Shown: positions 18,911 to 46,872 of the stretch, piece by piece
Position numbering within the stretch: the first letter of the stretch is position 1
Layout of the letters: the number at the start of each line of letters is the position of its first letter
Source of the DNA: Zygnema cylindricum
Lineage: Eukaryota > Streptophyta > Zygnematophyceae > Zygnematales > Zygnemataceae
Reading direction: 5' to 3'
DNA length: 64,000 nucleotides
Assembly (NCBI GenBank): GCA_037447655.1
Contig: JBBHKE010000376.1
Span: 1 to 64,000, forward strand
Notes under the pieces: generated by a model
Databases searched by the model: none
What the model was told of the DNA's origin: nothing
Seen by the model: the letters and a program-made list of their open reading frames with translations, nothing else
Position numbers and translations under genes: made by a program

Positions 18911-21535
18911 ATTATTACTTTGAGCGAGGCGACGAAGCGCAAATATCTTCCACCCTTAAACTGTTGCTTGATCTTTTGACAGGTTTTACGCTACACGAAA
19001 AATAGTGGATTATTGACACTGGAGAGTCACATCACGTTTGTACTCACGCTTCACTCTTTAACGATTTTCGCGGACTCACAGTACCAAAACGAATCACTAT
19101 CGTAAGTGGACAAGTTATTTCGATAAGTATAGTGGGTACTGTACGATTGGATTTGCCAAGTTTGGACTCACGCGGGTAGAAAAAGTTACGCAAACTCAAT
19201 TAGCAAATGTTTTGTACTTACCTGAAGGATAAGTGAACCTTCTTAGTGTATCGCAGATTTAGCGAGCGGGCGGCAACATACTTGTGTACGGAGACTCCAC
19301 AATAAAAATTGTACGATCGGATGGGTACAAATAGTTGAAGGAGAAGTCACAAATTTTATGCATAGTCGCCTAAAATGGCGTTGGCCAAAAACCCCCCCAA
19401 ACTCTAATGGTATTATTTCGCAAATCACTGAGTTGAAAAGCGATTTAACCTTGTGGCATCACCGGATGTCTCATACATCCGAGACGAGGAGACAAATCTG
19501 AAAGCTGCATCCGGCTAAGGATCCCATGCATCGATCTAAGCATCCGCTTGATCTAATGCAAATTGATTTATGTGGGGACGTGAAACCGGAGACGATTGGT
19601 GGAAACAAATATATTATGGTGGTGGTGGACGACTTCTCTCGCTTCAGATGGGTAATATTACTAAAACACAAATTCGAAGCATTTTTACGTTTTCAAGAGC
19701 GGCATGTGATGGCCGAAAGGCAATGTGAGAGAAAGTTAAAATCTATTAGATCGGATAATGAAGGGGAATTTATTGCTTTTGATCCTTATTCTAAAGAGTG
19801 GGGAATTTCACACCAATATACCACATCTTACTCACCGTAATCAAATGGCGTTGCGAAAGAAAGATCCGCACTCTTCAAGAGATGGTACGATCCATGGTAC
19901 ACGGATCGGGAAGGAGCATTAATTTATGGGGCAAATTATATTTGCAATCGGAGGATTACATCAGTTTCGGGTGATAAAACTCCGTACGAATTGTGGTATG
20001 GCCGAAAACCTACTCTCACAACATTCGGATTTGGGGATGTCGTGCATCGGTTTATATTCAAGCACAAAAGAGAAAAGGTAAATTTGCATCGAGAAGTTGG
20101 AGTGGTTATTTTGTAGGGTATAGCAATAAAGGGAGTATTTATCGAGTTTATGATCCCATTCGGAATGTCATTGAGGAATCGAGGAATGTGGATTTTCACG
20201 AGGATTTATTATCCACAATCTCTTGATCGGCCAAACGACATTTTAATCTTGATTTTCATAAGGAATTTAAAATTGGTGATCTTCATGACATTGAGGGTTC
20301 GGATTCGGAAATTGATCCGGAATCCACCTCCAATGTTAAGAGGGGGAAAGGTAAAATTGTGGAAAATGTAAATTTTGATAACATTGGTGGGGATTCACGA
20401 AGCGAAAATTCCCGAATGTCTTCGGACACGAGGAAATCTTCGTCTTCTAAATCGAGTGGACCGAATATCATTGAGGAGGAACCGGCAAAGGAGGAGAAAA
20501 AAATTGCGCCGAGGAGTATGAGAGAGAATAGGGGAAAGAAACCGGCTCGTCTTTCTCTTGACGGTAAGGGAAATATTGAAAATTCTTATTATTTTATTTC
20601 AGCGGCTAGGGAGGAGGATTTCCTATTATAGCAATCATTAGGCGACAAAATGCCGGGCGATCCGCAATCGTACATGGAAGCACGAAATTCGTGCGATTGG
20701 GAGAATCACTGGAAACCAGAGTGGGAAAGAGAACTTCAATCTATCATTGACAACCGAACATTTGAGGAGGTAAGTTTACCGGAGGGTAAAGAGGCTATTG
20801 ATGCGAAGTGGATTTTTAAAACTAAAACTTGTGCATCAGGGGAAATAGTAAAACATAAGGCTCGGCTAGTTTGTAAGGGCTTTCAACAAAGGGAAGGAGT
20901 AGATTATACGGAGATATATGCACCGGTAATGAAGTTTGATTCTTTGAGGATGATCATTGTTATTGCCGCTGCAAGCAAAAAGCACATTCACCAAATGGAC
21001 GTAGAGTCGGCGTTCTTGAATGGTGATTTAGAGGAGGCTTATATGAAAGTTATGGAGGGAGTAGTGTCGAAGGAGGGGAAGGTATAGCGGCTGCGAAAGT
21101 CCTTGTACGGACTAAAACAGGCACCGCGGACTTCGTATTTACGATTACACAAGGTCCTTACCGAATTTGGATTCGTACGAACAGTTTCAGACTCTGGAGT
21201 TTACGTAAAAGGTGAGGGGGAGGATAAAATCATATTTTTTGTCTACGTGGATGACTTTTTAATAAAATTTGCCAAGTTGACGCGAATTGCGAAATTGAAA
21301 GAGTACCTGCGTCTACATTTTAAAGTCACAGATTTGGGGGAGGTACGATATATTCTTGGAGTGGAAGTTTTAAGGTACGAAAATGGGGATATTAAATTGT
21401 TGCAAGCGCAGTATTGTAAAGAAGTACTGACAAAATTTGCTATGTTGGATTCTGAGCCGGTTTTGACACCTCTAGATTCCATACTTCAATATCGCAAATT
21501 TGAGGAGGAGCAACACATCAAAATTTATCTCCCCT
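18911..21535 (+). pseudogene. Copia V-A protease-integrase-RT fragment
   Basis: The copy starts mid-element at a junction with the M2 LTR. Protease reads WIIDTGESHHVC after an in-frame TAG. An internal deletion of about 100 bp near 19483 removes the zinc-finger end that V-B retains. Integrase (19526-19840) has DLCGDVKPETIGG and RSDNEGEF; a stop precedes SNGVAKE. RT spans 20650-21087 and 21103-21530 with [47 protein letters not shown] and FFVYVDDFLI. At about 21535 RT homology ends at TPLDS...EEEQHI and aCA 3' flank begins. The identical fusion point in V-B shows the fusion is older than the duplication. Confidence 0.85.
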
Positions 21536-21952
21536 CATCAAGGCCAAGATGCTCCAAGACGCTAATTTTCTATATGTCCACAGATGTTCAGTGCAAGTTA
21601 GTCATAAACATGTACTTAAGTGTGATGAGAATCAACGCACAAAATTGTGCCATAACCATACCATGAGACAAAACATATAGGAAGAGTCATAAGTTTAAAA
21701 ATCACAAATAGACAAACTATAACTATTGAAAGCTATTGTATTGCTGAAATAGTGATAAAATACCCATGATTTACAGATGTAAATGGTGTCGGAGACTTTG
21801 TAGTCCAGGCTTTCAGCAACTACAGTCAAAACTCGTACGAAAAGAAGCTACCCAATTCAAATCCGATGCTTTACACATATTTCCATATGCAATATAGACA
21901 TATGTTCCCAAATGCTGAAAAGTTGTATAGCTACATATGCAAAAAAGGCGTG
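21536..21952. other. 3' flank of aCA copy A
   Basis: This non-coding DNA follows the aCA stop codon (minus strand) and is repeated at 37455-37889. It may contain the aCA 3' UTR. No other gene was recognised. Confidence 0.5.
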
Positions 21953-23725
21953 CTACTGGGTTGCGCTCCAAGAATGAATTTTCCTCCCATTGAGAGGCTG
22001 AGGGGGACGATGATTGGTTCGCTGCCCCCCACTCACAACAGATATGGCCTTCATGAAAACTATGGCCTGTGGAGAAATAAACTCATCACATGAAGTTAGA
22101 AAATATTCCCAGATGTGGGGAACATAAGGAGCAAAAACACTTGCAAACACATACAACTTGGATTTCCACAATGCTAAAAATAAACAAAAAAATCATTGTA
22201 TCCATGCAACTGTCTGGTTTATATATGGAAGGAAGTGCTTACCTGTTTCACCGATAGATACTGCGGCTTTTGGAGCACATACCAGTGCACTCTTTCAAGG
22301 CACTTTGGGGTTGTGAGGGATCCCATGTAGTTGTAAAACGCGATATTGTTGGTTCCCGCAGCCCCTCCGAGGAAGAGCGCACTCGGATTAAGAAGTGAGC
22401 GGACGACGTGTGACGACACGGTTGTGGGTACTTTTCCAATAAAACTGTTAAAAATGCAAAGGGAAAAGGTAAAATAAAAACTAAGTGCTGCGAGAATTTC
22501 ATGTATCGAGAGGCTTACAGAAAAGAAAAAAACATTTCAAATTATAACTGACCTGTCCAGCCAGGCGTTAGGAACATCGTTAGGGTGGTAACGAAAGAGC
22601 ACCGACACGACAGCGAGATCACTCGTATTTCTGACATTCTCATGCACAAAATGAATTTCCATGGCGGACAACAGGCCGTCGATTGTGTGCTCGGACGGAA
22701 CGTGCACATGGAACTGCTTCTAGTGAAAAACGCCTTCAAAAAGTCGAACCGAGTTCACAGTTTTCTCCTGCGGCACCACCTCTGGAATCTCCCAGAGCCA
22801 TGGCTGGTGTCAATATCATTTTGTGGACAGTCACAAAGAGATCTTGAAAAAAGAAAAAATCGTGTCTTTCAAAGGACACACCGGAGCGAAAGACAATATC
22901 TTGACAGCAAACAAATATGATGGATGCCAGCAATAGTTTAAGAGAATTCGATGGCTCATTACTTTTTGTTTATAAACTTTATTTTTTAATATATTCTTTA
23001 GGGTCAAAGTATAACCCGAAGGACAGCCATTAAGTAAATGTACCGCACCGATTGTGTGGCCATTATTTGAGATTGTGTAATTGACCCATAACGCATATCC
23101 AAATTTAAATATAGATGTGGTTCCTTTATACACGATATGGGGTGAGGCAGCGATGTTGATTGGTGATTGTGTTTTTCCAGTGAGGCAATACGTTGGCTGT
23201 AAAACCGTACAAAACCACCCACATTTGTAAGTCTTATAAGGTTTGTTAGAACCATGCAAGAGATTAGAGCCAATGATTTACAAAACTGTCAACAAGCTCA
23301 TACTTTTGACTGAAAGCCCAAAGCTGATTCTCAATAATGACTACTAGAAAATAATTGGTTGGTAGATTTGCACTGAATCGAGGCTAATATATTTGAAAAA
23401 TTGAGTCCATTATTGTTCTGTTTTTTTAATTAATTTTAATTTCACCCATTTCAGAAATGAAAAACTAGCTTCTTTGTGCTCGTTCTGACTGTAAAATTTC
23501 TCATCCAAATAATAGATTCTGACATTAATGTGGTCGCTTCATTTGGAATTTCTACTTATTATGCTGTAATATGCCCCTTTTAATAGGCACGTGTCAACAT
23601 ACCGGCCAATCAGTTCCAGAGAGAGCATAATTGTAAGCCACGGCGTCCATTTTAATTGTGGTGATTGTTAGTATCACAACAGCCAATGCAAAGAGGCCAT
23701 TGGTAAAAGCTGCTTCAGAGCCCAT
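21953..23725 (-). pseudogene. Alpha carbonic anhydrase copy A, five exons, one in-frame stop
   Basis: Predicted exons are 23725-23603, 23196-23016, 22781-22553, 22444-22243 and 22066-21953; phases 0, 1, 2, 0 match across GT-AG junctions. The 849-bp CDS would give 282 aa, normal for secreted alpha enzymes. It shows a signal peptide, CLTGKTQSPINI, NNGHTI (proton-shuttle His region), KQFHVHVPSEHTIDG and MEIHFVHEN (all three zinc His and the gate Glu), GSLTTPKC (active-site Thr) and the C-terminal NHRPPQPLNGRKI. Only one lesion is seen: TAG at 22722-22720, just before KQFHVH, where copy B has TTA (Leu). It is a very young pseudogene or a functional allele with a base error. The family reversibly hydrates CO2. 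Confidence 0.8.
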
Positions 23726-26299: not shown

Positions 26300-27675
26300 A
26301 TGGGTAGAATGAAGAAAAATACCCCTTCTCCTATGTTGCCTTATTCTTCTACATCAATTCCTCGACCTCCAGATCTGGATCCTCCGGATCCATCCGAATC
26401 CGAATCATCGTCCGATCCGAAAGTAGAAAGTCCATTTGCTTTCATCGACAAAACTTTTGAGGAATCCGTTTCGGTCGATCCGTTCGGACAAAAGATGGAG
26501 AATGAGGGGAAAAAGAAGGAGGAAAATGATGCGATGGAAGACCATCTTCAAAAACTGATGGACAGACTTTTCAGTTATGTTGATCAACGGATCTGGGAGG
26601 ACAACCGTGTCACGAGACCTCCATTTTTCGGAGATCCCGTTCCGACACAAAACATCGTTGATACGGATGTAGATGAAGGAGATGAGGAGAGGAGGGAATC
26701 GATTCGAAAGGGGAAACTTCTCATTGATGACAATTTCGATCTTGATGATTGGAGTGAAGGGGACGAACAAGTTGAATCTATGTCCGGAAAAATCGTCATC
26801 TAAAATTGAACGAATTATCAATCATGGAAGAAATATATCAAAGGTCAATTTAAACTAAAACGACTTTGGAAGGTGGTAAAATGGGTGGAGAAGATGCCTA
26901 CCTCGAATAGGAGAGCTTATCTTGTGTGGACAAAGAAAAATCTTTCCGTCGTTGGTGGTTTATTCCAATCATGTAGCACTTCTATGCATCATCTATTTTT
27001 ACCCGAAGATTTGCCCATGATTGTTGGGTGGCATTTGAAAATCACTTTGAGAAGAGTCTTCAAAACAGGGGCAACACATTTATACCGATTACACATCTTT
27101 CAAAGTGAAACCAAACAAATCTATCGATGAGGCCGCAAAGAGATTTCACATTATTATTGAGCAGCTCGCAAATATGGGAAAATTTATTGAATAGATTGTT
27201 AAGGCATCGGTCTTCACACATGCCTTACCGCAGAAAAGGATAAATTTAGGGACATTCTCTTATTAAAAGATTTGAATACTAAGGACTCGATTATGACATT
27301 CCTCTAATCCACCGAAGCGAATCTTCCGAGTTCATTGACGTGACCCCAACCGACCGGTTTCCTCAATGCGACGACACCAAAATTGCCCGATCAAAATTAT
27401 TTTCGGGGAAGAAGAGGAACAAGAGGCAAAAATCCGAGAGGAAGAGGGGGAAGAAGACATCAAAGGGCTAGGAGATCTCCTTCCTAGCCCGGATATTCAA
27501 ATCTAACCAATATTGCCTTTTTTTAGTGCGGTAATCTCAATCACATGGTGGCTTCTTGACCCAAATGAGGAGCATCAATGTCATTTTTGTGGGAAATGGG
27601 GCCATATTAGCCCACAATGTTATTCAAAGGCTGAAAATAGAGGAGCCGGCGGTAGAGGAGGCAGCGGCAGTAGAG
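26300..27675 (+). pseudogene. Copia V gag
   Basis: The start ATG at 26300 has a strong context (gccgccATGG). The first part (to 26803) is acidic and Pro/Ser-rich (PRPPDLDPPDPSESESSS). It ends at a stop and is followed by decayed UBN2-like sequence (26873-27400). A zinc knuckle CHFCGKWGHISPQC is intact at 27579-27620, followed by a Gly/Arg-rich tail. Homology to the V-B gag end (33480-33740) stops at about 27675. Protease onward is missing. Confidence 0.75.
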
Positions 27676-28239
27676 GAGATGTCGTGCATGACCATACAAC
27701 TGTTCAATGACATGCATCATACCCAATTAGCTAGCCAAAAATGTATGGACCGCACATATGTATGCTAAAACTAGGGAGCAAAGAATATATACTAACATAA
27801 ATACTAATGAATCAGCTCAAAAAACAAACAAACAAATAGAACTACAAAGAAAAGTTTAGTAGGTAAAAAGGGAAAAAAGATGGAACCCCCCCCCCTTCTA
27901 GCTCCTTAGCTTGTAGGGGAGTTGGGGAGGACAGGCGGTAGGGCGCGGCATCAGTGGCAAAACCATTGTCCAGCAGGAATAGAGTGCAAAGGTGGGACCA
28001 ATTACTCCATGTGAAATCCTAGATTGCAATAGTCGCAGAGAAGCATCGTCGTTTCTGTATCAAACCGCCAACACAACTGACACTCAGTGGCCTCGGTAAT
28101 CGGCATCCGCCACGGATCCATCCTATGGGAGAGATCAGGTAGGTAGCATGGAGCAAAATTTTTCTAATGTTCTCGCAAAGTCCGCGTGTCGGCCCCATGT
28201 ATGCTTAATAATCTATTGGCGTCGATTTTGTTGATCCTC
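27676..28239 (-). other. 3' end of gypsy G1 and flanking sequence
   Basis: Decayed minus-strand sequence continues from integrase (for example GRHADFARTLEKFCSMLP near 28170). A purine run (on the minus strand GAAGG followed by Gs) at 27885-27897 may be the polypurine tract. An LTR downstream of it was not identified. Confidence 0.4.
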
Positions 28240-28960
28240 AATATGTGAGATGAGACATCCGTGTCGAGGGTGTCAAATGTTTGTCGACGCAAATATACGT
28301 AGTCCCCCTCCCGATAAGGTTTTTGTTGTGGCTGCTAACTACCACGGTGAGTTTTATCAAACCGTAAAGAGTCGCAATGTTGAGCAATCTGCAAGTTTTC
28401 AAAGGCCATTAGAATTTCCCTTGCAAAAAGCAAAGCCGGTTGGTTAGTTGTTCCAAAAAAGGAGAATCACTCATAAACAGCAAAGGAAAACTAGCAACTT
28501 TTTGTATATTTCTACCGAGTAGTGGTTGTCGACCAAATAACACATTAGAAGGTTGAAATTTGCTAAGCTGGCTTGTACAAACATGCAATAACCCATGACA
28601 ATATAATCAATGATTCATCCCACACAGTAATCTATTTCTCAAAACAATGTTTATGCAGAGCCCACTTAAATGTTTGCACCGCCTTCTCCGCCAAACCGTG
28701 TGCCTGGGTTGATGTCGAATGGTTCAATGGTGATTGATCAACGCCTCCTCCAACATTTCCTGAAATTTGCCATAGAACTTGGTCCCTTGGTTTGTAAGGA
28801 CTTCTGCTGGAGCTCCAAATCGGAGGAGCACATGCTCCTTGAAAGCGGTGGTGGTGAGTTTGGCAGTTTTGTGCAAAGGGCGACCACTTCCACCCATTTG
28901 CTGAAATTCTCGATCATGAGCATGAGGTTTTTGTTGCCTCTTTGCGAAACGGGAAAATGA
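28240..28960 (-). pseudogene. Gypsy G1 integrase fragment
   Basis: At 28923-28738 the minus strand reads MLMIENFSKWVEVVAL. After frame changes it continues with a VLTNQGTKF-like segment and, near 28690, HGLAEKAVQTFK. These are Ty3/gypsy integrase core signatures. Many stops and frameshifts are present. No chromodomain was recognised. Confidence 0.72.
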
Positions 28961-29417
28961 CCAACCAGATCACACGACCACCTATAGGAGAGACCTCAGA
29001 TATGCAAAGGTTGAAGTTTAGTCTGACGGTTAGAGAAAGAGGTTAGCAACCGGTCACATGTGCTACATCCATGTAACACGGCAACTACGTCTGCCTGCAT
29101 GCTCTACCACCAATTACATGCCTGTACCAAACTCAAAGTCCGTTTAGTACCATAATGTCCCAGATTAGTATGAATCTGATCGATAAGTGATAGGCATTCT
29201 CTCGGCCGAGGAACATGCCAATGACTTCCATATGAGAGGAGACGGATAAGGGAACCTCCCATCTATAAGTAATTTTGAGCTCTTTTACGAACACGCTCCT
29301 CCTCTCCTAGTGTTGTGCTTGTTCGAAATTACTGGGTGGATAAAAATAGGACCAAAGCACTATCCCGCCATGGATTGTATTCAATTTTGTGATATGTGGG
29401 ACCCGGAAAATTGTAGA

Positions 29418-29807
29418 CTAGGTGTGCTCCAGCAGACAACGATGCAAGTGGTTCATCATCAAAATCCTGTCGCACTCCATTATCAGGAGAATTTTGTAAG
29501 GGGTTCGAGAAAGACCGTCGGCATTCAAACTGAGGAGCCCAGGTCGATAGATGATCTCCATATAGTATTCCTGCAAAAGAAGAGCCCAACAGGCTAACTT
29601 GTCGGATAGTTTGTCATTGGTCATGAGCCAATGCAATGGTTGATGGTCAGGGAGAAGAGTGAAAGTCTTACCATAAAGGTAATGGCGGAAATGCACAATT
29701 CTCCAAACGGCATCCAAACACTCCCCCTCATAATATGTAGTTTGACTCTGCTTGATTTTTGCTTCGACTAGCATAAGCCACCATGTATTCCTCACCTGTA
29801 AGCTCAC
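29418..29807 (-). pseudogene. Gypsy G1 RNase H
   Basis: The 130-codon frame shows IKQSQTTYYEGECLDAVW, FRHYLYGKTFTLLPDHQP, LHWLMTN and YRPGLLSLNADGLSR, the standard Ty3/gypsy RNase H core. The expected ordering RT, RNase H, integrase on the minus strand is kept. Confidence 0.85.
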
Positions 29808-29963
29808 GGTGAGCTAGGATGGCGTCAATACCAAGCCTACCAAAGTCTATCTGTAGGCATAATGGTAACTTATGATTTGGTGATCGGAGAATCGAAGCGG
29901 TGGATAGTGCTTTTTTAAATCTGTGGCATGCCTCAATCTGCTAGGGTCCCCAAGTAAGCTACG

Positions 29964-30760
29964 CTATTTTTTTAAGAGTTCATTTAGTGGGGATGCGAGC
30001 GTGCTAAACCCAAGAACAAACCTCCGATAATAATTAGCCAAACCTAAGAATGCACTCAGGCTCGTTAAATCTGTTGGGGTTGTTAGTTTCCTGATCGCTT
30101 CTACCTTGGCTTCTAGGGAAGTAATTCCCTCGGATAAGATAAAATGCCCGAGATATGGTACCTCTTCAGCCCCGAAGATGCATTTGGATGGATGACATTT
30201 GAGACCCACCTTTTTCAACTCTTTTAATACCCACTCTATATGTGGTGCGTGTTCCTCTATAGAGGATGAAGCAATGATTAAATCGTCAATGTAACAAACA
30301 GGCAAACTTACACCCCCCTTAGACTTAGTCCATAACCTTCTGGAATACGATAGGTGCATTTTTCAAGCTAAAGGCCATAACTGAACATTCCCAACGCCCA
30401 TCACTTCCCCAAAATGCAGTCTTATGTCGGTGTTTTTTCTCTGTTTAAATTTGGTTAAACCCTTGTTGTAGATCTTGAATGCTCAAATATTCAGCCCTTT
30501 CAACATGATCAAAAATGTACTCTACCAAAGGCATTGGATGTCGGTCCTAGATTGTACGCGAATTTAGTTCGCGATAGTCCCCGCACATACGACATTTTTT
30601 GAAATTCCCCTCCGTGTCTCTTTTACGAGGCATGACGGTGGGCGCCGCAAAGGTGGAGTCGGACCTATAAATCAGTCCTGCCTCTTCTAACTCTGAGCAT
30701 TGCTTGTCCACTGCATCCCATTCAGTTTATTATATACGATGCTTGGGTTTGAATATGGGT
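29964..30760 (-). pseudogene. Gypsy G1 reverse transcriptase
   Basis: Ty3/gypsy RT motifs are read in order: DKQCSELEEAGLIYRSDS, MCGDYRELNSRT, DRHPMPLVEYIFDHV, YLSIQDLQQGFNQI, KTAFWGSDGRWE, then VCYIDDLIIASSS with the catalytic aspartates and LGLANYYRRFV. Stops and at least two frameshifts interrupt it. It lies about 370 bp downstream of the methyltransferase frame, in a different frame. Confidence 0.88.
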
Positions 30761-31129
30761 CTATCATCTTCCAGGCCAATGACATTCTCTAAATGGTGTG
30801 TTGACCCAAATCTTTCCTGGAGTAAGCGAATGCGTTTTAGTGTTCGTTTATAACTCCATTTAACAATTCCGGTTTTGGTTTTGTTTTTCCCGTCCCAAAA
30901 TTCCACGTTGGTTATTCATGTGCGTTGATGGTAATGGCTTCCATGGCCTGTGCCAATGCTAGCTGCTCTTTCCCGACTAAAGACTGTCCCAACTTATACT
31001 CAACTGGGAGCTGATGCTAACAATTTCATGCATGATGCCAACTTCTAGATGGAAATGCAGTTGTCTAGTGTGGGACTGCGCGAACTAGTATCGAAGCTCT
31101 AGCCGTTGTGTATGCAGGAATAGACCAAA

Positions 31130-32554
31130 TCATGTGACTAGGTTCCAAGAAATCGTAAATAGTATGATTTGTGTCCGACATGGCAAAAAGAGGATAAAGA
31201 GAGATATGAAAAGTTGTACCCGGAAGAGAAGGTGAGGATTTACAAGCAATGTGTTTGAATGGTGTATTTCCCCTCCAGCTGATTGAGAACGATAGTTCTG
31301 TGCATATCGATCGGCTACAAACCCTACGCCGAAGACAAATGACAGGGATTGAGGATCCATATTTTGACCAAGTAAGGTGCAGCGCTGCCGCTCACTGAGT
31401 CTTGGGGCAGCGGTAGTGCTTAGAATGAAATGGAGTAAGAGTTCTCTCTGCGCAACAGTAGGTTCTTCTATAATGCCAATATGAGTGCTCTGAAGCATAC
31501 CAGTTCCGTTATGTGAATATGCACGGGAGTTTGGATATGGGACTAATGTAGGAAGTGCACGTAATGGTAGGCCAGGGGTATTAAGACAAACTGCAGGAGG
31601 ATAGTGTGTCTAGACACGTGTTTGGACCTTATGAAATGAAAGAAGTGCTTATTTAATGAAAAGTTTAGGTGGTCGGACAACAAGGTTAGCTTCCTGGAGC
31701 CGGCCTATGTCAACCAGATTAGTCCACTAGGAACGAACTTTGTGGGACTGCGACCCATGACGTGCGGCATTGATTATTAGTGGGGGTCGAATAAATGATT
31801 CGATACGTTTGTAATTTGTGAGAACCATAGGTCGGGGGTCATTATGAGCCGCGACGTTTTCTAAAACGTGTCCAAAGGGACGGTTTGATGACTAAAAGAA
31901 ATGGATAAGATGCACTACCTCAAAGAACAGTTTACTGCGCGGATCTGCTAGACCTGAACCCTTCCAAGCTCGAGACATACCCTGACATTCCCATCCTGCA
32001 AAAAGGAGATCGATTGGTTGTAACTTCTCCAGGTGGTGATTACCTATTAGACCGATATCCTTCACTAAAGCTGAATGCATACTATAAAACGCAGACTGTG
32101 GTAGGAGGTGAGGGTATTGTTTATGTAAGATTTGACAGTGGTGCAACTGAGCACCTCTAGCCAAAGGGTCACTATCTACGGAATAAATCTGCTTGATTAG
32201 AATATCGTTCCTAAGGCATAAGAGAAGTGTGGTACCTATTCTTGCAAACACGTCTAAGATAACAAGACCGTTTGGGTTAGGTTGTAAACTGACTAGCTTC
32301 CATTCAATCGGCAGAAACCCGGAGGGATCTTTTACAATCGCAGGTGGATCCGGAATACTGAATAAAGGAATTGGTGCAGTAAACTTATAGAAACAGTCAA
32401 AATTTGAAGAGTCAATAATAAAACCTAGGGTGCCAAATAATTCCGCCATCCTTGAGAGTTCTGGTAAGATTTCTTCCGCGATTAAAGATTCAAAAATATG
32501 AGCACCTATACAACCTGCAGCATAGGCTGGCAAGACAAACGCAGAATGAGCCAT
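31130..32554 (-). pseudogene. C5 cytosine DNA methyltransferase domain in gypsy G1
   Basis: The 475-codon frame (only nonsense changes, no shift) shows C5-methyltransferase motifs in order. Motif I is LDVFARIGTTL (residues 100-110). Motif II is YSVDSD (124-129). Motif IV is AGWECQGMSRA with the candidate catalytic Cys190 (31987-31985). Motif VI is HVLENVAAHN (ENV codons 31861-31853). A motif VIII-like HGSQSHKVRS is followed by a stop and WTN. A C-terminal EEPTVAQRELLL...LLGQNMDPQSL matches motifs IX-X. The family methylates cytosine C5 in DNA using AdoMet. Glu replaces the usual Pro before Cys190, and Arg replaces a Gly in motif I. The frame continues from an upstream polyprotein piece (33376) and precedes RT, so it reads as part of the element. 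Stops make this copy inactive. Confidence 0.82.
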
Positions 32555-33455
32555 AGTAGGAATGGGTTGATGAACTGAGATAAAAGGTAAGCAAACTTTG
32601 CGTTTCGGAAAATCTTTTGATATGTACGAAAACGTTTGATCTACATATCAACCCTCCCCCCTACTCATAAAATGACGTCCTGGCTGACCAAGTACTTATA
32701 ATCACTACACTTGGTGACCAAAGCGTGAGCATATATTTTTGCGAAATCGGATTTTTGATCGACACTGAAATTGAAAACATAGTGGTTCTTTTGTCCTACG
32801 TAGGACTGGTGTTATGGTTCATACGGAAGTCAACAAACGAATGGTAGTGGGTTGTAGTGTATCTGCCGTAAGATCTATTTTTTTGGCAAAATCTGATTCG
32901 AGGATAATGGGTTTTTCCATTGTGTCTAAGAGAGGTAAAGTTTGGGCCACCCCATTATCTGTGAACACACATAACTTCTTATCGTGAAAACTGATGTGTG
33001 GAGTAAGAGTGGAACGCTCTTCGTTAGTAATTGCTTGAAGAGATAGGGTACTACGATGGTGTTAAAGCGCTTCTAATGCATGAACATATTGAGATAGATA
33101 TGAGGAATTAGCCTTGTTAATCGATTTAGGAAACATAGTGGACAGTATTGCTCACCGTTTTTTGACCTTATAGGCATCTTGTTTACTCCCCTCTAGAATA
33201 GTTAAGGCCTCAGCAGTGATGCTAAAGACTATTTCCGGGATAAGGGTTTTAGGTTCTTTAGCGAAAGATAATGGTATGCGAGTGTTAATGGATTTAGACT
33301 CACCATTATGATCGGGTCCCTTTGAAAAGATCTGCCCAGTGTTAAACGGTTGATTCTCGGAGAGATCGCCCAACAAAAGAGGGCATATGGACTACGGTTT
33401 GGGCAATTCTAGTTAATTGCGGTTTAACCTACGCCATAAGCGCGGTAAACTGCTC
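32555..33455 (-). pseudogene. Gypsy G1 polyprotein region upstream of the methyltransferase
   Basis: This stretch is in the same frame as the methyltransferase from 33376 on (for example QPFNTGQIFSKGPDHNGES, ITNEERSTLTPHISFHDKK, FTDNGVAQTLPLLDTMEKP) with scattered stops. No protease or gag signature was recognised. The element is cut at about 33455 by the junction with copia V-B; gag and a 5' LTR are absent. Confidence 0.5.
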
Positions 33456-33469
33456 CTTTATAAGGAGGA

Positions 33470-34769
33470 AGAAGAGGCGAAAATCCTAGAGGAAGAGGGG
33501 GAAGAGGACATGAAAGGGCTGGAGATCTCCTTCCCAGCCCGGATATTCAGATCCGACCAATTTTGCGTTTTTTTAGTGCAGCAATCTCGATGACATGGTG
33601 GCTTCTTGCCCAGATGAGGAGCGTCAATGTCATTTTTGCGGGAAATGGGGCCATATTAGCCCCCAGTGTTTTTCAAAGGCTGAAAATAGAGGAGCCAACC
33701 GTAGAGGAGACGGCGGCGGCCGATAAGGTGGACGCGGCAACGGTCATCTTGGCGGCCCCGGTGGTCATGGAGGCCGCCATGGAAGAGGAGGAGGACACTT
33801 TATGGGTGACGATTACTTTGAGGGAGGCGACGAAGAGCAAATATTTTCCGCCCTTAACCTATTGCTTGATCTTTTGACACATTCTACACTACACGAAAAA
33901 GAGTGCATTATTGACACTGGAGCGTCACATAACATTTGTACTGACGCTTCACTCTTTGACGATTTTTGTGACCTCACGGTACCAAAATGAATCACTGTTG
34001 TACGTGGACAAGTGAGTTCGATAAGTATCGTGGGTACTGTAAAAATTGGATTTGCCAAGATTAGACTCACGTGGGGTAGAAAAAGTTACGCAAATTCAAT
34101 TAACAAATGTTTTGTACTTACCTAAAGGATCAGTGAACCTTCTCAGTGTACCGCAGATTTAGTGAGCGGGCGGCAACATACTTGCGTACAGAGACTCCAC
34201 AATAAAAATTGTACGATCGGATGTGTACAAATAGGTGAAGGAGAAGTCACGGATTTTATGCATAGTCGCCTAAAATGGCGTCGGCCAAAATTCCCCCCAA
34301 ATTCTAATGGTATTTTTTCGCAAAACTTTGAGTTGAAAGGCCATTTAACCTTGTGGCACCACTGGATGTCTCACACATACGAGACGAGTTTACGACGGAT
34401 GATAAAAAATGTAAGCGTGCGGGAAATGGACTTGGCGTCGGGGCAAAAATTTAATGGGTGTGAAGAGTGTAGTAAGGGGAGACAAATCTGAAAGCTACAT
34501 CCGGCTAAGGGTCCCATGCATCGATCTAAGCATCCGCTTGATCTAGTGCAAATTGATTTATGTGGGGACGTGAAACCAAAGACGATTGGTGGAAACAAAT
34601 ATATTATGGTGGTGGTGGACGACTTCTCTCGCTTCACATGGGAAATATTACTAAAACACAAATTCGAAACTTTTTTACATTTTCAAGAGCAGTATGTGAT
34701 GGCCGAAAGGGAATGTGAGAGAAAGTTAAAATCTATTAGATCGGATAATGGAGGGGAATTTATTGCTTT
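33470..34769 (+). pseudogene. Copia V-B gag end, protease and integrase N-terminus
   Basis: A zinc-knuckle segment homologous to 27579-27620 lies at about 33630-33670. It is followed by an expanded Gly/Ala-coding repeat, then protease CIIDTGASHNIC (33900-33935). The zinc finger (LTLWHHWMSHTYETSL and CEECSKGRQ, then a stop) and integrase start (DLCGDVKPKTIGG, RSDNGGEF) follow. Y2 is inserted at 34770 right after this Asp motif. Compared with V-A it retains about 100 bp deleted there. Confidence 0.85.
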
Positions 34770-35675
34770 TGTTGAAAAGAGGTAATTAGTATTTCACTTC
34801 CCTGTTTTAGTTTTGCTTTAAAGAAAGAGAGTGAGGATCAAAGGCGCGCCATGGCTGCCGCCATATTTAGAAAGTGGCAGTTTTTCAAGTAAAGGGTATT
34901 TTACTAAAATGATGCCTAAGTCTAGATTTGAACCTATGACCTCTAAAGTCTCTATAGCCTAACGCCTTAACCATTTAGGCGTTACGAAACGATACACGTG
35001 ACGGGTTTTATAAATACATAAACATTAACGCAACAGTTAATTAACAGCATACTAACCTAAAGGAGCAATTTCTGCATGTACGCAAATCTAAACCGTGTAA
35101 AATATGTTTTGATCGGACGGCCGACATTATAGCCGACACGCGAAGTGAGCTTTTTGGCGGCATACGGAGATAGCGTCACGCGGTGCCACGTGGCGCCACA
35201 TTATTTGATACCGGAAAAGATGGGAGGAGGAACCATGGCTTCCGATTTGACATGTGTCACCTTGTAGACCTTGTCGTACAATGGTCGTACAATAAGTACA
35301 TCGCCCATTGTACCTTCTTGTACTATATAGTGTTCCTATTGGACTAGGGTTTAGTAGTAGGTAGTCGTGAGTAGGCAGACCAAGACTTAGTGATATTTAG
35401 GTACCTCTCTCTAATAAGAGAACTTGCAACTATAAAGGTCATCTTTGACCAACCATAACGTACTGCTCAGGGGAGCAAATTCAGTGATTCTTTTTGCGTT
35501 TGACTCAAGGGAGTCTTGTCATCACAGGGGTGAGAGTGGTCAGAATATTTGTGTGCCTGGGCGGCGCTTATTCAGCGGGAAAGTAGAAGGGGAAAATATT
35601 ATCCTAGAGGCTTTCCATAGGTTGGCTTTACATAGGCTGCTCATTCTGTGGGTCAATGGAGACCACAGAATTTTA
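34770..35675 (+). mobile_element. Solo LTR Y2, 906 bp, TSD GCTTT
   Basis: The insert begins TGTTGAAAAG, ends ACAGAATTTTA (CA mutated to TA) and is flanked by GCTTT (34765-34769 and 35676-35680). V-A shows the uninterrupted site (ttgcttttgatcc). Its right part matches solo LTR Y1 (minus, 41872-40636) and the R/U5-like part of X LTRs (actgctcaggggagcaaattc). Confidence 0.88.
34914..34980 (-). other. tRNA-like sequence with A and B boxes, antisense in LTR Y2
   Basis: On the minus strand there is an A-box-like TGGTTAAGGCG (34973-34963) and a B box GGTTCAAATC (34934-34925). Flanking GCCTAAA and CTTAGGC could pair as an acceptor stem. It resembles a degenerate Ser/Leu tRNA. The anticodon arm does not fold, so this is not a functional tRNA gene. 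Confidence 0.55.
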
Positions 35676-37460
35676 GCTTTTGATCCTTATTCTAAAGTGT
35701 GGGGAATTTCTCACCAATATACTGTATCTTACTCACCGTAATCAAATGGCGTTGCGGAAAGGGAGAACCGCACTCTTTAAGAGATGGTACGATCCATGGT
35801 ACACGGATCGGGAAAGAGCATTTATTTATGGGGCGATGCAATTTTGACGGCAAATTATATTTGCAATCGGAGGATTACATCGGTTTCGGATGATAAAACT
35901 CCGTACGAATTGTGGTATGGCCGAAAACCTACTCTTCACCGCATTCGGATTTGGGGATGTTGTGCATCGATTTATATTCAAGCACAAAAGAGAAAAGGAA
36001 AATTTGCATCAAGAAGTTGGAGTGGTTATTTTGTGGGGTATAGCAATAAAGGGAGTATTTATCAAGTTTATGATCCCATTCGGAATGTCATTGAGGAATC
36101 AAGGAATGTGGATTTTCACGAGGATTTATTATCCACAATCTCTCTATCCTTCAAACGTCATTCTAATCTTGATTTTCATGAGGAATTTGAAATTTGTGAT
36201 CTTCGTGACATTGAGGGTTCAGATTCGAAAACTGATCCGGAATCCACCTCCAATGTTAAGAGGGGGAAAGATAAAATTGTGGAAAATGTAAATATTGATA
36301 ACATTGGTGGGGATTCACGAAGCGAAAATTCCCAAATGTCTTCGGACACGAGAAAATCTTCGTCTTCTAAATCGAGTGGACGGAATATCATTGAGGAGGA
36401 ACCGGCAAAGGGGAAAAAGAATTTGAGCCGAGGAGGAGTATGAGAGAGAATAGGGGAAAGAAACCGGCTCGTCTTTCTTTCGATGGTAAGGGATATATTG
36501 AAAATTCTTGTTATTATATTTCAAGGGCTAGGGAGGAGGATTTCTTCTTATAGCAATCATTTTGGGACTATATGTCGGGCGATCCGCAATCGTACATAGA
36601 AGCACAAAATTCATGCAATTGGGAGAATCATTGGAAACCAGAGTGGGAAAAAGAACTTTAATCTATCATCAACAGACGAACATTTGAGGAGGTAAGTTTA
36701 CCGGAAGGTAAAAATACTATTGATGCGAAAGTGGATTTTTAAAACTAAAACTTGTGCATCGGGGGAAATAGTAAAACATAAGGCTCGGCTAGTTTGTAAG
36801 GGCTTTCAACAAAGGGAAGCAGTAGATTATACGGAGACATGCACCGGAAATGAAGTTTGATTCTTTAAGGATGATCATTGCTATTGCCGCTACCGGCAAA
36901 AAGCACATTCACCAAATGGACGTAGAGACGGCGATCTTGAATGGTGATTTAGAGGAGGAGGTTTATATGAAATTTCTGGAGGGAGTAGTGTCGAAGGAGG
37001 GGATGGTATGGCGGCTCCGAAAGTCCTTATACAGACTAAAACAAGCACCGCGGACTTCGTATTTACGATTACACAAGGTCTTTAAAGAATTTGGATTCGT
37101 ACGAACAATTTCAGATTCTAGAGTTTACGTAAAAGGTGAGGGGGAGGATCAAATCAAATTTTTTGTCTACGTGGATGACTTTTTAATAATATTTGCCAAG
37201 TTTACGCGAATTGCGAAATTGAAAGAATACGTGCGTCTACATTTTAAAGTCAAAAATTTAGGGGAGGTACAATGTATTCTTGGAGTGGAAGTTTTAACGT
37301 ACGAAAATAGGGATATTAAATTGTCGCAAGCGCAATATCGTAAAGAAGTACTGACAAAATTTGCTATGTTGGATTCTCAGCCGGTTTTGACACCACTAGA
37401 TTCCAAACTTCAATATCACAAATTTGAGGAGGAGGAGGAGGAGGAGCAACTCATCAAAGC
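35676..37460 (+). pseudogene. Copia V-B integrase C-terminus and reverse transcriptase
   Basis: After Y2, integrase resumes (GISHQYTVSYSP, a stop, then SNGVAERE shifted) and continues to TPYELWYGRKPTLHRIRIWG and FVGYSNKGSIYQVYDP. An acidic/Ser linker to about 36440 leads into RT. The main RT frame is 36850-37527 (HQMDVETAILNGDLEEE, LYRLKQAPRTSYLRL, FFVYVDDFLI). RT is cut at about 37460 at the same aCA junction as V-A. V-A and V-B are around 90-95% alike by eye. Confidence 0.85.
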
Positions 37461-37889
37461 ATATCTCCCCTCATCAAGGCAAAGATGCTCTAAGACGCTA
37501 ATTTTCTACATGTCTACAGATGTTTAATACAAGTTAGTCATATACATGTACTTAAGTGTGATGAGAATAAACGTACAAAATTGTGCCATAACCATACCAT
37601 GAGACAAAACATATAGGAAGAGTCATATGTTTAAACCTCACAAATAGACAAACTATAACTATTGAACGCTATTGTATTGCTGAAATAATGACAAAATTAC
37701 CGATGATTTACAAATGTAAATGGTGTTGGAGACTTTGTAGTCCAGGCTTTCACCAACTACAGTCAAAACTAGTACGAAAAGAAGCTACCCAATTCAAATT
37801 TGATGTTTTACACATATTTCCATATGCAATATAGACATATGTTCCTAAATGCTGATAAGTTGTTTAGCTACATATGCAAAAAAGGCGTG
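37455..37889. other. 3' flank of aCA copy B
   Basis: It corresponds to 21536-21952 and is non-coding. Confidence 0.5.
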
Positions 37890-39118
37890 CTACTGGGTTG
37901 CGCTCCAATAATAAATTTTACTCCCATTGAGAGGCTAAGGGTGACGATGATTTGTTTTGCTGCCCCCGACTCACAACAGATATGGAGTGCATGAAAACTA
38001 TGGCATGTGGAGAAATAAACTCATCACATGAAGTTAGAAAGTATTCCTAAAAGTGGGGATCATAAGGAGCAAAAACACTTGCCGACACAAACAACTTGGA
38101 TTTCCACAATGCTAAAAAAAAACAAAAAAATCATTATATCCATGCAACAATATGGTTTATATATGGAAGGAAGTGCTTACCTGTTTCACCGATAAATACT
38201 GTGGTTTTTGAAGCACATACTAGTGCACTCTTTCATTGCACTTTGGGCTTGTGAGGGATACGGTGTAGTTGTAAAACGCGGTATTGTTGGTTCTCGCAGC
38301 CCCTTTTGGGAAGAGCGCACTTGGATTAAGAAGTGAGTGGACGATGTGTGACGACACGGTTGTGGGTAATTTCGATAAAATTGTTAAAAAATGCAAAAGG
38401 AAAAGGTAAAATAAAAATTAAGTGCAAAGATCATTTGGAATTTGCGAGAATTTAATGTATAGAGAGGCTTGCAGAAAAGAAAAAAACAGTTCAAATTATA
38501 ATTGACATGTCCAGCCAGGTGTTTTGAACATCGTTAGGGTGGTAACGAAGGAGCACCAACACGATAGCGAGTGTATTGGTATTTTTGACATTCTCGTGCA
38601 CAAAGTGGTTTTCCATGGCGGACAAAAGGTCGTTGATTGTGTGCTAGGACGGAACGTGCACATCAAACTGCTTTAAGCGAAAAATGTCTTCAAAAAGTCG
38701 AACTAAGTTCACCGTTTTCTCCTGCGGCACCACCTTTGGAATCTCCCAAAGCCATGGCTGCTGTCAATATCATTTTGTGGAATTTCACAAAGAGAGATCT
38801 TCAAAATAAAAAAATCTTGTCTTTCAACAAACACAACGGAGCAAATACATTATTTTGACAGCAAAGAAATATGGTGGATGCTAGCAATAGTTTAAGAGAA
38901 TTCAATGACTCATTACTTTTTGTTTAAAAACTTTATTTTTTAATATACTTTTTACGATCAAAGAACCCGAAGGACAGCTATTAAGCAAAGGTACCGCACC
39001 GATTTTTTTGGCCAGTATTTAAGATTGTGTAATTGATCCATAACGCGTATCCAAATTTAAATATAGATGTGGTTCCTTTATATACGATATAGGGTGAGGC
39101 GATGTTGATTGGTGATTG
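37890..39118 (-). pseudogene. Alpha carbonic anhydrase copy B, exons 2-5 decayed
   Basis: It aligns with copy A from the stop codon (37892-37890) up to the middle of exon 2 (39118), where an LTR begins; exon 1 is missing. Lesions: a one-base insertion in exon 2 at the NNGHTI motif, the first zinc His changed to Asp (KQFDVHVPS), SEH changed to a stop, the exon-4 acceptor changed from AACAG to AACAA, and the exon-5 acceptor lost (CACAG to CACATG). It is clearly non-functional and more decayed than copy A. Confidence 0.88.
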
Positions 39119-39473
39119 TGTTTATAGGAGTAGGATTATTGGACGACACAATAAAAGACAAAGAGAGTCAAAGCATTTAAAATTGTTTGATCAAAATTGA
39201 TAATTTCATTATGCAACAAGATCCTCTTATTTAACGTGACAAAATGCTAATTATTGTGGATAGTGGTGTACTACGCTACCTAAATTGGATTTGGGCAGCT
39301 ACATAAAGACCAAATCTATTAGGCAAAGTTGAGCGACGAAAAGAAAAGGAAAGAATAAGACTGAAACTAGAATTACAAGACCGCACTTGAATAAGTGGAG
39401 CACGGTTTTGTTTACGTAAGAAAAATGAGACTAAAGTGGACGTATAGAAACATACTAAAAATAACATTTAACA
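39119..39473 (-). repeat. 3' LTR of copia Z/E, about 355 bp
   Basis: On the minus strand a polypurine tract GAGGGGGGG precedes TGTTAAATGTTATTTTTAG at 39473. The LTR ends near TATAAACA (39119), abutting aCA copy B. This LTR type is unlike the X, Y and C/M LTRs. Confidence 0.65.
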
Positions 39474-40407: not shown

Positions 40408-42714
40408 TGAAACTCTGAGACCTCCATAAGTCCTCAGAGTGGACAGCTTCCAAGAAGCCTCTAGGATAACCTTGACCCCTTTGTGTTTCAGCAAGAACAA
40501 CTACCACCCTAGCAAACAAAAACTTTGACCAACTTCACCTCTATGAAGGAAAGACTCCCATGAGTCGATATCAAAAAGAATCCCTGAATTTTCTCCCCTG
40601 AACAGTAAGTTATGGAGGGTCAAAATTGACCTTTTTGAAATTCTATGGGCTCCATTGCCCACAGAATTCGCAGATCCAAAAGAAGCTAATCTAGATAGTG
40701 CCGACTCCAAGTTGATATAAACCCAAATGAATGATCCCTTGATAATCAAAACCCCAATACAACTTCACCATTGTGAAGATAAGACCTTGTGTGTGCTCAG
40801 TTCCACCACAGAATGCAAAGCTTGAATATGTGTTTTGGACAGTATTCCCCACTTTGACTTTCCCACTGAATAAGTGCCACCCTGACACGCAAAAACCTCT
40901 GACCGACTACACCACTGTGTAGCTTGGACTCTCTTGAGTCCGCAGCAAAAAGAATCACTGAATTTGCTCACCCGAGCATTAAGTTATGGCTGGTCAAAGA
41001 TGACCTTTATAGTTACAAGCTCTCTTAGAGAGAGAGGTACCTAAATATCACTAAGTCTTAGTCTGCTTACTCACGACTACCTACTACTAAACCCTAGTCC
41101 AATAGGAACACTATATAGTACAAGAAGGTACAATGGGCGATGTACTTATTGTACGACCATTGTACGACAAGGTCTACAAGGTGACACCTGTCAAATCGGA
41201 AGCCATGGTTCCTCCTCCCATCTTCTCCGATATCAAATAATGTGGCGCCACGTGGCACCGCGTGACGCGATCTCCTTATGCCGCCAAAATCTCACTTCGC
41301 GTGGCGGGTATAATGTCGGCCGTCTGATCAAAACATATTTTACACGGTTTAGATTTGCGTACATGCAGGAATTGCTCCTTTTGGTTAGTCGTTTGTTAAT
41401 TAGTTGTTTTGTTAATGTTTATGTATTTATATAACCGGTCGGGTGTATCGTTTCGATAACGCCTTATTGGTTAAGGCTTACCTCTACAAACATAACCACA
41501 GACCATGGTTCAAATCTAGTCTAGAGCAGTTTTTGGTTGTGTTAGTTTGTTAGAACTCTCTACTTCTACACGTATAAATACCTATTATACCCAACATATC
41601 CCATCGTTGACTCTAAGCTATAGGTTAAAGCTAACGGCTGTAAAGGGTTATAGGTGCTAGGATCAAATCCTAATTCTCGCAATCCTCTTTTGCTACAAAC
41701 TACGAATCAGCCTATCCCCTTTAGACAACCATGGCACTAGCTCTCTCTCTGGTCTTCAGTGACTGCAACAAGTATGGGGACCGGAGAGATTTGAGCAAGA
41801 AGCATGCTGCCTTTGTTGACTTACTCTATTTATTTTTCCAATAGAGACCTAGTAAATGCATAAATTTCAACACTTTTACAAAGAAGATCTCTGGGGGAGA
41901 GGGTCCTATCTACAAATTTTTCTAAGTCCTATATCTCTCACAAACTCTATCTACTAGTGTACGACACCAATCATATTAAACTGTCGTACATAAAATTACA
42001 GCCGCTTGTGTAATTTATGTTCGGAAATTGTACGACATGGCCTAAAAATCGACACATGTCATATTCGGATTCGGTGTCATAATCCGCGGAGATACCGCGA
42101 TCCAACGCAATTTCGCCACATGTCATCCGATGTGGCGATGACCATAAACCGCCAAGAATCTCTTCCGCAATCTTGGCTTTCTTCCCAGTCGTCCGATTAA
42201 ATGTAGATTTCAATCGGAGCCGTCATAAATACATGCGCGGTATTTGTTTCGTAAAAGAAACAAAATACGCGATACTTGTTTGTTGTCCATACCGTAATCC
42301 GTACGTTTACATAACGGTTTCTATGAAACCGTAAACATCCGCAATTAAATGAATTTTCCGACGTCGTAACATATAAATACGAATCACACCTAATCGTATA
42401 TATCAGAACTTCTATACTTAACGGCTAAGGCTACCGGGTACCGGCGCTTTGAAGGTCGGCAGGTGCCAGGATCAAATCCTTTCACCAACATATAACTTTT
42501 AGTAAATAAACCTTCCTACCTGTAAATAGAATAATCTATTTCCCGTAAACCTCTAGATAGCCCAGATAGCCATGGCTCTAGCTTCCTCTCCAACTTCTTA
42601 GTGACGGTAACAAGTGTGAGAGTATAAGAGAGAAGTTAGAGGCAGACTTCCTCGGCTTCTTTCAATATTCCAATTTAGACCTAGAAAATAATGAAATAAC
42701 CATCGATTTCTACA
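40408..42714 (-). mobile_element. X2 3' LTR, split by solo LTR Y1
   Basis: The LTR starts TGTAGAAATCGATGG at 42714 after the X2 polypurine tract. It runs to 41878, is interrupted by Y1 (41872-40636, with the CTTTT repeat on both sides), and resumes at 40635 to end TTTCA at 40408. The next five bases, TTCAC (40403-40407), repeat at 52143-52147 on the other side of X2. A tRNA-like stretch lies antisense at about 42417-42488. Confidence 0.85.
40636..41872 (-). mobile_element. Solo LTR Y1, 1237 bp, TSD AAAAG
   Basis: Minus strand TGTTGAAATTTATGC...ATAGAATTTCA is flanked by CTTTT on the plus strand (40631-40635 and 41873-41877). Joining the flanks restores the X LTR sequence (tacaaaaggtc). No internal domain is present. 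On the plus strand (antisense) an A-box-like TTGGTTAAGGC (41467-41477) and a B box GGTTCAAATC (41508-41517) occur, as in Y2. Confidence 0.88.
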
Positions 42715-44097: not shown

Positions 44098-44700
44098 GGT
44101 TATGGGCCCACCCTCTAGGGTACCAATCTTTAATGGAACTGGCTTCATATACTGGGAAAGTATGATGATAGGAGCTTTATGCGAAAAAAGGTTTTGGGGG
44201 ATAGTGAGTGGACGGTTGGGGCGTCCATCAAGTCTTGGAATTCCTCCAGGGTTTGGAGGAACCAGATTCACCAGGAAAGAGGTTCCACCTTCGACGGCGG
44301 AAACAAAAGAAGGAGAGGTGGTGGACAAAGGAAAGGAGAAGGAGACGACCACACCAATAACAACTGGTTCGACGTTCATGTCACCTATTCCGAGGAATGA
44401 GGAGAATGATACTGAAACCTGAACTTCAACAATATGGCGGCAAAGCACTTCATCCTACGCCATCTCACTCAAGGACTTGCATGTCCTCATTTGCAGGTAA
44501 AAAGGGCATCCGATCTTTGGATGGCTCTCATAGAGATGTACCAAAGTGGTACGATTCAGCAATAACAGTTGGCTGATCAAAAAGTTAAGGAGTATGTATA
44601 CAAAGGGGGAAATATGTTGGATTTATGCAATGAGCTTGCTACACTCTTCATGGAGCTAGAGAGTGCGGGAAAAGATTTTAGTGAAAAATAAAGGGTTAAT
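44078..44700 (+). pseudogene. Copia X1 gag N-terminal half
   Basis: Two in-frame starts exist: ATG 44078 inside the LTR and ATG 44102 inside the primer site (MGPPSRVPIFNGTGFIYW). The frame runs through a Lys/Glu-rich segment (EGEVVDKGKEKE) to a frameshift/stop at 44420-44422, where X3 keeps reading NDTETWVFNNM. The remaining gag (RHLTQGLACPHLQ, MELESAGKDFSEK) is in the shifted frame to about 44690. Confidence 0.85.
44098..44112 (+). promoter_or_regulatory. X1 primer binding site, complementary to tRNA-iMet anticodon arm
   Basis: GGTTATGGGCCCACC begins at the first base after the LTR. As I recall plant initiator tRNA-Met, it is a perfect 15-nt complement of nucleotides 25-39 (GGUGGGCCCAUAACC). 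Position 39 is where Drosophila copia primer fragments end. X3 has the same site with one change (AGTTATGGGCCCACC, 55614-55600, minus). The ATG inside the site (44102-44104) is in frame with gag. Confidence 0.78.
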
Positions 44701-44709
44701 TGTTAACTG

Positions 44710-46362
44710 ATGAAGTTACTTGATGAGTTCGTGAACATAGTTTATCGTGTGCAGGACTTGCCTGACTCAAGGTGGATATGGAACTCAGTGGTAGGGATGA
44801 TTCTCGTTCAAGAGAATACAATTGAGATCCGAAGGGGAGGAAAGAGTGGTCGAGCCTTGGCAACAGCGACTGATTGGAGGAACAGGGATTCCCGAAAACC
44901 GGTCGGAAACTATGGGGGTAGGGAGCAGAAAAAACAGGCAGATGAGTTCGAACCAAGGGCTCCCAAAGGTCTATGTCATTTTTGTAAGAAACCGGGGCAC
45001 TATATGGCAGAGTGCACTAAGCTAACCGAACTTCGGTTAAAGGAAGGGCAGATCGGTGGTACCTCGAGAGGAAAGAAAAAGGCCCTTGTCACACAGGTTC
45101 TTGAGGCGGAATCCGAGGACGAGGACGATGAGCTCCTTTTGGATGAGGAGTTGGAGGCGAAAAATGAGGTCGAAATTCCACGAAGGCAAAAATGTGCTTA
45201 TGGTGGATTAAAAGGTGAAGCAGGCTGGATTGTAGATTCAGGTGCCTCCATGCACATGTGTAAGGATAGACACCTGTTCACTAAGATAAGAAAGATTCCC
45301 ACCGTAGAGATAGAGTACGGGGATGGGAGGATAGTCACCACTACTCTTGTAGGATCGGTAGATCTGAAAGTATTAGTAGAAGGAAAGACATCCATATTAA
45401 CATTCTCCGATATATTGTTTATTCCGGAGCTGAAAAAAAATCTTATCTCTACATCAGTATTAGATGATAAGGGTTTTTTCACTAGCACTAGGGAAGGAGT
45501 CTTTACTGCTAGTTTTGAGGATGATGTCTATTTCATTGCTGAGAAAGGTAGCCATGGGATGTTTAGGCTGATCTTAAGTAATGAAAAGAAGAAACTTTAT
45601 TATGTTGGTGTTCATGATATTATGATGTTGCATAAGAGGCTTGGGCATGTGAATCTAGATAAGTTAAGAGAGATGAAAAAGATGGGAGTGGTGGAAGGGA
45701 TTCAGTTCAGTGAAAGTGATGATATAAGTGATTGTGGTGGATGTGCTCAAGGTAAAACACACAGATTACCCTTTCCTAAATCAGCCACCTATAAGGGAGA
45801 AAAAATTCTAGATCTAGTACACATAGATATTTGGGGACCGGCTAAAGTGCCCTCACCAGGGGGGAAGAGATTTATGATGATTATAACTGATGATTGGTCT
45901 CGGTATTCCCGGGTATATTTTTTCAAAAACAAGTCCGAAGCTGAGGATTGTTTTAGACAATATAAAGCATGGAGCGAAAAACTCCATGAAACTCCAATCA
46001 AGAGAGTAAGGAGTGACAATGGTGGAGAGTATATTTCTAACGAGTTTGAGGATTTTCTTAGGGAAGATGGGGTTCAACACCAAAAGACAGTTCCAGAAAA
46101 TCCGGAACAGAATGGGGTAGCTGAAAGGTTAAATAGAACACTAAGTGATAGTGCTAGAAGTATGTTGTCAGATAAAAAGATAGGAAAAAGGTTTTGTGCA
46201 GAAGCAATGAACTGTGCTAATTACCTCAAGAATAGAGTTCTTACTTCAGCTATAAAAGATCAAACACCTTATGAGAGATGGACAGGCCCGAAACCAGACA
46301 TATCTCACTTAAAGGTTTTCGTCAGTCAAGTTTTCAGTCTAGATACTGATCGATCCAATTAG
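44710..46362 (+). pseudogene. Copia X1 gag end, protease and integrase
   Basis: The 550-codon frame has a zinc knuckle CHFCKKPGHYMAEC, an acidic stretch (ESEDEDDELLLDEEL), protease WIVDSGASMHMC, a finger with HKRLGHVNLDKL and CGGCAQGKTHRLPF, and integrase with all DDE residues (HIDIWG, VRSDNGGEY, PEQNGVAERLNRT). It ends at TAG after SLDTDRSN; two more stops follow before the linker frame at 46498-46851 (PSIPASDFEGGRRSSKRL). Confidence 0.92.
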
Positions 46363-46872
46363 AAGCTAGATCCTAAAAGAAAACTTGGATATTTATTAGG
46401 ATATGATGAGGATGTTAAAGGATATTGAGTTTACAATCTAAAGAGGAAAGATATAATCTTAGTAAAGCATCTAGTAGTTATAGATGAAGGAAAGTCTGTG
46501 GATCCCTTCAAATATACGAAATTAGTAAAAATCAGATTTGAGTCAGAAAATTCCGATGACTTTGAGCTTCCTAACTATCCAGGTTTTAAAGAAGATCACA
46601 TTCTTGCAGGAACAAATCAAACCGAAAAGAACTCGGCTGTGGAAACTCTAGTGACAACTCTACTCGAAGTGGAAGACGTGGTGGAAATTGATTTGGAATC
46701 AAGGGATAGGGGAGAAGCCGAGTTTGTTCGAAAGAATCCACGAGAACCATCTATTCCGGCCTCAGATTTTGAAGGGGGGAGGAGAAGTAGCAAAAGACTG
46801 CAAGAAAAACAAGTTAATAACAAGGTAACTAAACTATCTCATCAAGATTAACCTCAAACTTATGGAGAGGCG

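Follow-up and report, generated by a model that had tools for sequence, protein, structure and literature searches.

The window, by which we mean the entire 64-kb stretch of DNA analyzed, very probably holds on its minus strand a truncated and decayed Ty3/gypsy LTR retrotransposon whose Pol comprised a probable protease, a linker, a DNMT3-type methyltransferase, a reverse transcriptase, an RNase H, an integrase and a PHD finger. The domain content, strand and order of this copy can be read directly: the domain matches above cutoff (PF00145, RVT_1, RNase H, H2C2 and PHD) follow one another on one strand in pol order and leave no gap for a foreign insert. What counts against this reading is that there is one copy only, that no LTR pair was found for it and that the protease and the integrase core lack above-cutoff support. 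The features are as follows.

33465..33717, plus strand: copia gag DNA at the element's 5' side; 89% match to 27414-27668; Pol_BBD 24.6 bits and zf-CCHC 14.5 bits, both below cutoff
32640..33376, minus strand: probable protease region in two frames; read by eye, no Pfam family
31130..32647, minus strand: C5 cytosine methyltransferase, predicted DNMT3 type, with N-terminal linker and four internal stops; from PF00145, best PDB matches DNMT3B/3A and stop counts
32263-32234, minus strand: motif I, aligned with phage enzymes
32185-32168, minus strand: motif II, aligned with phage enzymes
32011-31973, minus strand: motif IV, catalytic Cys in Trp-Glu-Cys-Gln; aligned to DNMT3B by phmmer
31870-31853, minus strand: motif VI, Glu-Asn-Val present; aligned to DNMT3B by phmmer
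31774-31730, minus strand: motif VIII, aligned to DNMT3B by phmmer
31465-31442, minus strand: IX-like motif, by eye
31375-31343, minus strand: X-like motif, by eye; lined up uncleanly by MAFFT
29964..30911, minus strand: reverse transcriptase and upstream linker in two frames; RVT_1, linker by eye
29418..29962, minus strand: RNase H in two frames; PF17917 54.8 bits (cutoff 24.8), PF17919 48.1 bits (cutoff 29.8)
29050..29196, minus strand: integrase zinc domain (H2C2); PF17921 40.4 bits (cutoff 25.5)
28600..28983, minus strand: integrase core remnant in broken frames; rve 14.7-14.9 bits over 28983-28870, below the cutoff of 32.6, the rest by eye
27948..28082, minus strand: PHD finger; PF00628 29.4, 31.7 and 32.2 bits (cutoff 24)
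27886..27899, minus strand: purine run, candidate polypurine tract
27414..27668, plus strand: copia gag DNA at the element's 3' side; 89% match to 33465-33717; no Pfam family alone

The methyltransferase frame within pol

The C5 cytosine methyltransferase lies in one minus-strand frame, 31,130-32,647. Its open ORF (31892-32647) matches PF00145 at 28.4 bits (1.4e-6), and the whole of 31130-32647, read through with stops as X, matches at 31.5 bits (1.6e-7); the curated cutoff of this family is 22 bits. This profile check supports a preliminary description of the same DNA, which had placed a C5 methyltransferase in a gypsy element. The remaining two minus frames returned 0 Pfam families over 31000-33519. 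Scored against the methyltransferase frame, the NCBIfam dcm profile reached 30.1 bits and missed its cutoff of 100.65, and the PHROGs methyltransferase families reached 40.5 and 38.4 bits.

No intron is needed between motifs I and X, nor is a frame change over ~1.5 kb (31160-32638). Across 31130-32647 the methyltransferase frame contains five stops, the last at its end and the other four internal; over the same stretch the two remaining minus frames contain 27 and 26, and the three plus frames 41, 29 and 35. Over the 493 codons of 31160-32638 there are 4 stops, and 2000 dinucleotide shuffles gave a mean of 22.1 and never fewer than 9. The counts in other frames and in shuffles indicate that this frame has been kept far better than chance. 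The region from the reverse transcriptase to the PHD finger (27940-30990, minus strand) shows several frame changes over ~3 kb, unlike the methyltransferase; this may be chance, and we do not use the contrast as evidence because frameshifts are invisible in poorly conserved stretches.

The frame had also been described as continuing to 33376 with nonsense changes as its sole damage. This does not hold for the whole of the upstream region: 32,800-32,640 reads as protease-like, by eye, solely in a minus frame other than that of the methyltransferase, which points to a probable frameshift upstream of the latter. Pfam found no protease in the region upstream of the methyltransferase. On the other side, RVT_1 scores 40.9 bits in the ORF 29964-30362 and 30.0 and 37.3 bits when read through (cutoff 29.6). 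As the preliminary description had claimed, the reverse transcriptase, the RNase H and the integrase lie downstream on the strand of the methyltransferase, and their order on one strand identifies the element as Ty3/gypsy; the Pfam support excludes the integrase core itself, which stays below cutoff. By eye, the stretches flanking the methyltransferase read on into pol-like sequence.

Alternatively, the methyltransferase could have originated outside the element, as a processed pseudogene of a host DNMT3 or as some other DNA, and ended up between two pieces of gypsy sequence. Such an origin would fit the single copy, the sharp frame change just upstream of the linker and the copia flanks, which attest to rearrangement of this region. 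Yet the methyltransferase sits on the pol strand at the right place for a pol insertion, neither a poly-A nor a duplication is seen at its edges, and a layout with DNMT3 in Pol is already published in the passages of PMC5890265 discussed below. We regard this origin as most unlikely and favor a methyltransferase that was part of the element's Pol.

Methyltransferase class and catalytic loop

The motifs lie in order within one frame, as had been noticed earlier, with IX and X read by eye only. Their order from I to X is canonical and not rearranged, and the frame does not qualify as a DRM enzyme. In PDB searches, the read-through frame matched DNMT3B/3A best (1.4e-6), with HhaI behind (0.0029), and the open ORF alone gave weak matches, among which HhaI (0.049) narrowly preceded DNMT3B (0.092). 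An AlphaFold model, built on an alignment of viral and prokaryotic relatives, has low confidence (pLDDT 60.3, pTM 0.65); in fold comparison it also resembled DNMT3B/3A best. Judged by closeness in sequence and predicted fold together with the canonical motif order, the methyltransferase is of the non-rearranged DNMT3 type, an assignment that is weak with the open ORF alone.

DNMT3A is also the best match for two phage or bacterial relatives. In general, the DNMT3-like methyltransferases of phages and bacteria have the methyltransferase motifs in common with our frame, score up to 51 bits with it, and differ from it in lying outside retrotransposons. In a phage collection, 65 records matched the methyltransferase weakly, the best at 48 bits. 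Single queries with the methyltransferase ORF and the reverse transcriptase ORF retrieved no relatives from viral contigs, nor did a pattern for this reverse transcriptase's motif find a match there; GWECQGM searched as a DNA pattern in the same contigs gave two matches, both of which read as other proteins and were set aside. An alignment query recovered at least 563 methyltransferase relatives, this being their number among the 600 matching viral stretches listed, and 88 among 192 genome stretches, and 80 relatives were kept from each set. For the comparison of motif IV we used 169 relatives, that is, ORFs from viral and prokaryotic loci that align at 1e-3. When pieces of our reverse transcriptase, RNase H, integrase and PHD finger were searched against these 169 loci by tblastn, nothing was found at 1e-3, a result from viral and prokaryotic collections that is silent on plants.

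Upon inspection of motif IV, we found that the catalytic cysteine is kept and that a glutamate stands where Pro-Cys is expected. Every one of the aligned viral and prokaryotic relatives (169/169) has Ser-Pro-Cys at this position, and the six phage enzymes with which motifs I and II were aligned likewise have Ser-Pro. Glu-Cys-Gln in place of Pro-Cys-Gln, which the preliminary description had called unusual, is real in this copy and stands apart from these relatives. Because the comparison set includes no eukaryotic enzyme, it cannot distinguish decay of this copy from a character of its lineage. Retroelement proteins of the green lineage may have GWECQG-like loops, which gives a lead.

The PHD finger, the flanks and the decay of the copy

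A PHD finger follows the integrase. It had escaped the preliminary description and is new here. It lies in one frame with an integrase C-terminal-like region that begins at 28400, with two stops inside, and its best PDB matches are PHF12 (4.7e-13), fly KDM5 Lid and ORC1B. Several of the matched PHD fingers read unmodified H3K4, as does DNMT3's own ADD domain. A Pfam search of the three minus frames across 27040-29000 detected no chromodomain after the integrase; it detected the PHD finger instead. The stops and frame changes between the integrase core and the PHD finger could mean that the latter is a neighboring fragment and not a part of the element. We find this improbable, given that the PHD finger shares its frame with the integrase C-terminal-like region, has the strand expected of the element and lies just before the purine-rich run. 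A PHD finger that belongs to the element's integrase is the reading we retain.

In chromoviruses, a group of gypsy elements, a chromodomain follows the integrase. Like our copy, they place a chromatin reader at the integrase C-terminus; the reader is a chromodomain there and a PHD finger here, and chromoviruses are not known to carry a methyltransferase. A second comparison is offered by Ginger1 elements, which have a gypsy-like integrase and, in the family Ginger1-9_HM, a C-terminal PHD finger with Ulp1; they are DNA transposons, not gypsy elements, and no methyltransferase is named in the passages of PMC2836005 considered. In the open-licence literature searched, we found no PHD finger paired with a methyltransferase in a gypsy element. 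The main text of the plant LTR element survey of Neumann et al. 2019 (PMC6317226) contains no occurrence of PHD or methyltransferase, and passages of PMC3286476 and PMC5408684 treat other subjects.

Both ends of the gypsy block abut copia gag DNA, which accounts for the missing gag and LTRs. The 255 bases of copia gag on either side share orientation and are 89% alike. As a direct repeat at both ends they were considered as a candidate LTR pair, which we rejected since they read, partly by eye, as copia gag. The repeat by far exceeds the length of a target-site duplication and suggests a rearrangement or two copia copies. No LTR pair was found in 20000-45000, and no second copy of the element occurs in the window. 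With its stops and frameshifts, and with neither gag nor an LTR pair, the copy is dead and cannot work.

The observed/expected CpG ratio is 0.72 in the gypsy block, 0.96 in the copia DNA at 33465-39123 and 0.52 in that at 44700-48300. Across four alignments of repeat copies in the window, C/T differences amount to 15.9% at CpG versus 5.8-12.1% elsewhere, a weak excess that is not decisive. Elsewhere in the window, the copia element at 44707-48285 retains long open frames of 551, 140 and 477 amino acids, with an integrase and RVT_2 at 277.6 bits, and is much better kept than its neighbors. One copia-type stretch is present twice in direct orientation (19766-23174 and 35668-39123, ~90-92% alike), an inverted repeat (34919-35604 / 40837-41522, ~87% alike) is inserted in a copia remnant, and 3672-3947 is a perfect-looking tandem duplication of a 138-base unit with 99% matches. 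Searches returned 0 Rfam families and 0 tRNAs, and six-frame translation of 60000-64000 gave 0 Pfam families at 0.001.

Known methyltransferase-bearing elements and a possible mechanism

A gypsy element that bears a methyltransferase is already known. The charophyte Klebsormidium nitens has KnitGypsy-Dnmt3, which passages of de Mendoza et al. 2018 (PMC5890265) describe as a Ty3/gypsy element with an intronless DNMT3 in its Pol ORF; on that description it is like our element in having a non-rearranged, intronless DNMT3-type methyltransferase in gypsy Pol. Our best reading is that the present copy is a truncated relic of a DNMT3-carrying gypsy lineage. The two cases differ in that the KnitGypsy-Dnmt3 family has several copies under purifying selection, whereas here we see one dead, truncated copy. 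The text description of KnitGypsy-Dnmt3 in PMC5890265 leaves a PHD finger unmentioned, and that element may have one too. Our copy could then be a plain new member of the same kind, PHD finger included and with nothing new about it. We take this as a serious possibility, below an even chance: the domain class and the position in Pol agree with the published description, but the likeness is one of description and not of compared sequences.

The same passages describe SymbioDIRS-Dnmt3 of Symbiodinium, which also has a DNMT3-type domain in a retrotransposon but is a DIRS and not a gypsy element, and treat it and KnitGypsy-Dnmt3 as independent gains (PMC5890265). Passages of a 2025 survey again place certain DNMT3 members inside retrotransposons, those of streptophytes and of dinoflagellates (PMC12344493). 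The preliminary description had credited both known cases with de novo CG methylation. This stands for SymbioDIRS-Dnmt3, two copies of which methylate CG de novo in yeast, and not for KnitGypsy-Dnmt3, whose domain produced no methylation in yeast, a result that its authors call inconclusive (passages of PMC5890265). The idea that such an element methylates its own cDNA is a suggestion that the 2018 authors made for DIRS elements (same passages).

If this idea is carried over to live relatives of our copy, Pol would be cut by the protease and the methyltransferase released from it. The enzyme may then place 5mC on the element's cDNA or on a fresh insertion, and the marked element would resemble host repeats that are already methylated. 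We consider self-methylation in live relatives possible, with our own leaning against it. The PHD finger, in turn, may tether the integrase to chromatin and guide where the element inserts by recognizing the tail of histone H3, perhaps with H3K4 unmodified; such targeting in live relatives has, in our estimate, almost an even prospect. Taken together, the two domains might represent the paired chromatin toolkit of a gypsy lineage in which pol supplies a DNMT3-type writer and the integrase bears a PHD reader, in effect a split version of the host DNMT3 layout of ADD plus catalytic domain, with a Trp-Glu-Cys catalytic loop of its own. We hold this broader proposal, which would include a possible land-plant affiliation, to be unlikely on balance. 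The earlier label of a 'plant' or 'land-plant' element finds nothing in the sequence to support it.

Hosts commonly silence retrotransposons by DNA methylation, and an element that carries its own methyltransferase reverses this arrangement. A second gypsy case that also bears a histone reader would reveal whether elements acquire writer and reader domains jointly, and it would make the idea of self-methylation testable in intact relatives.
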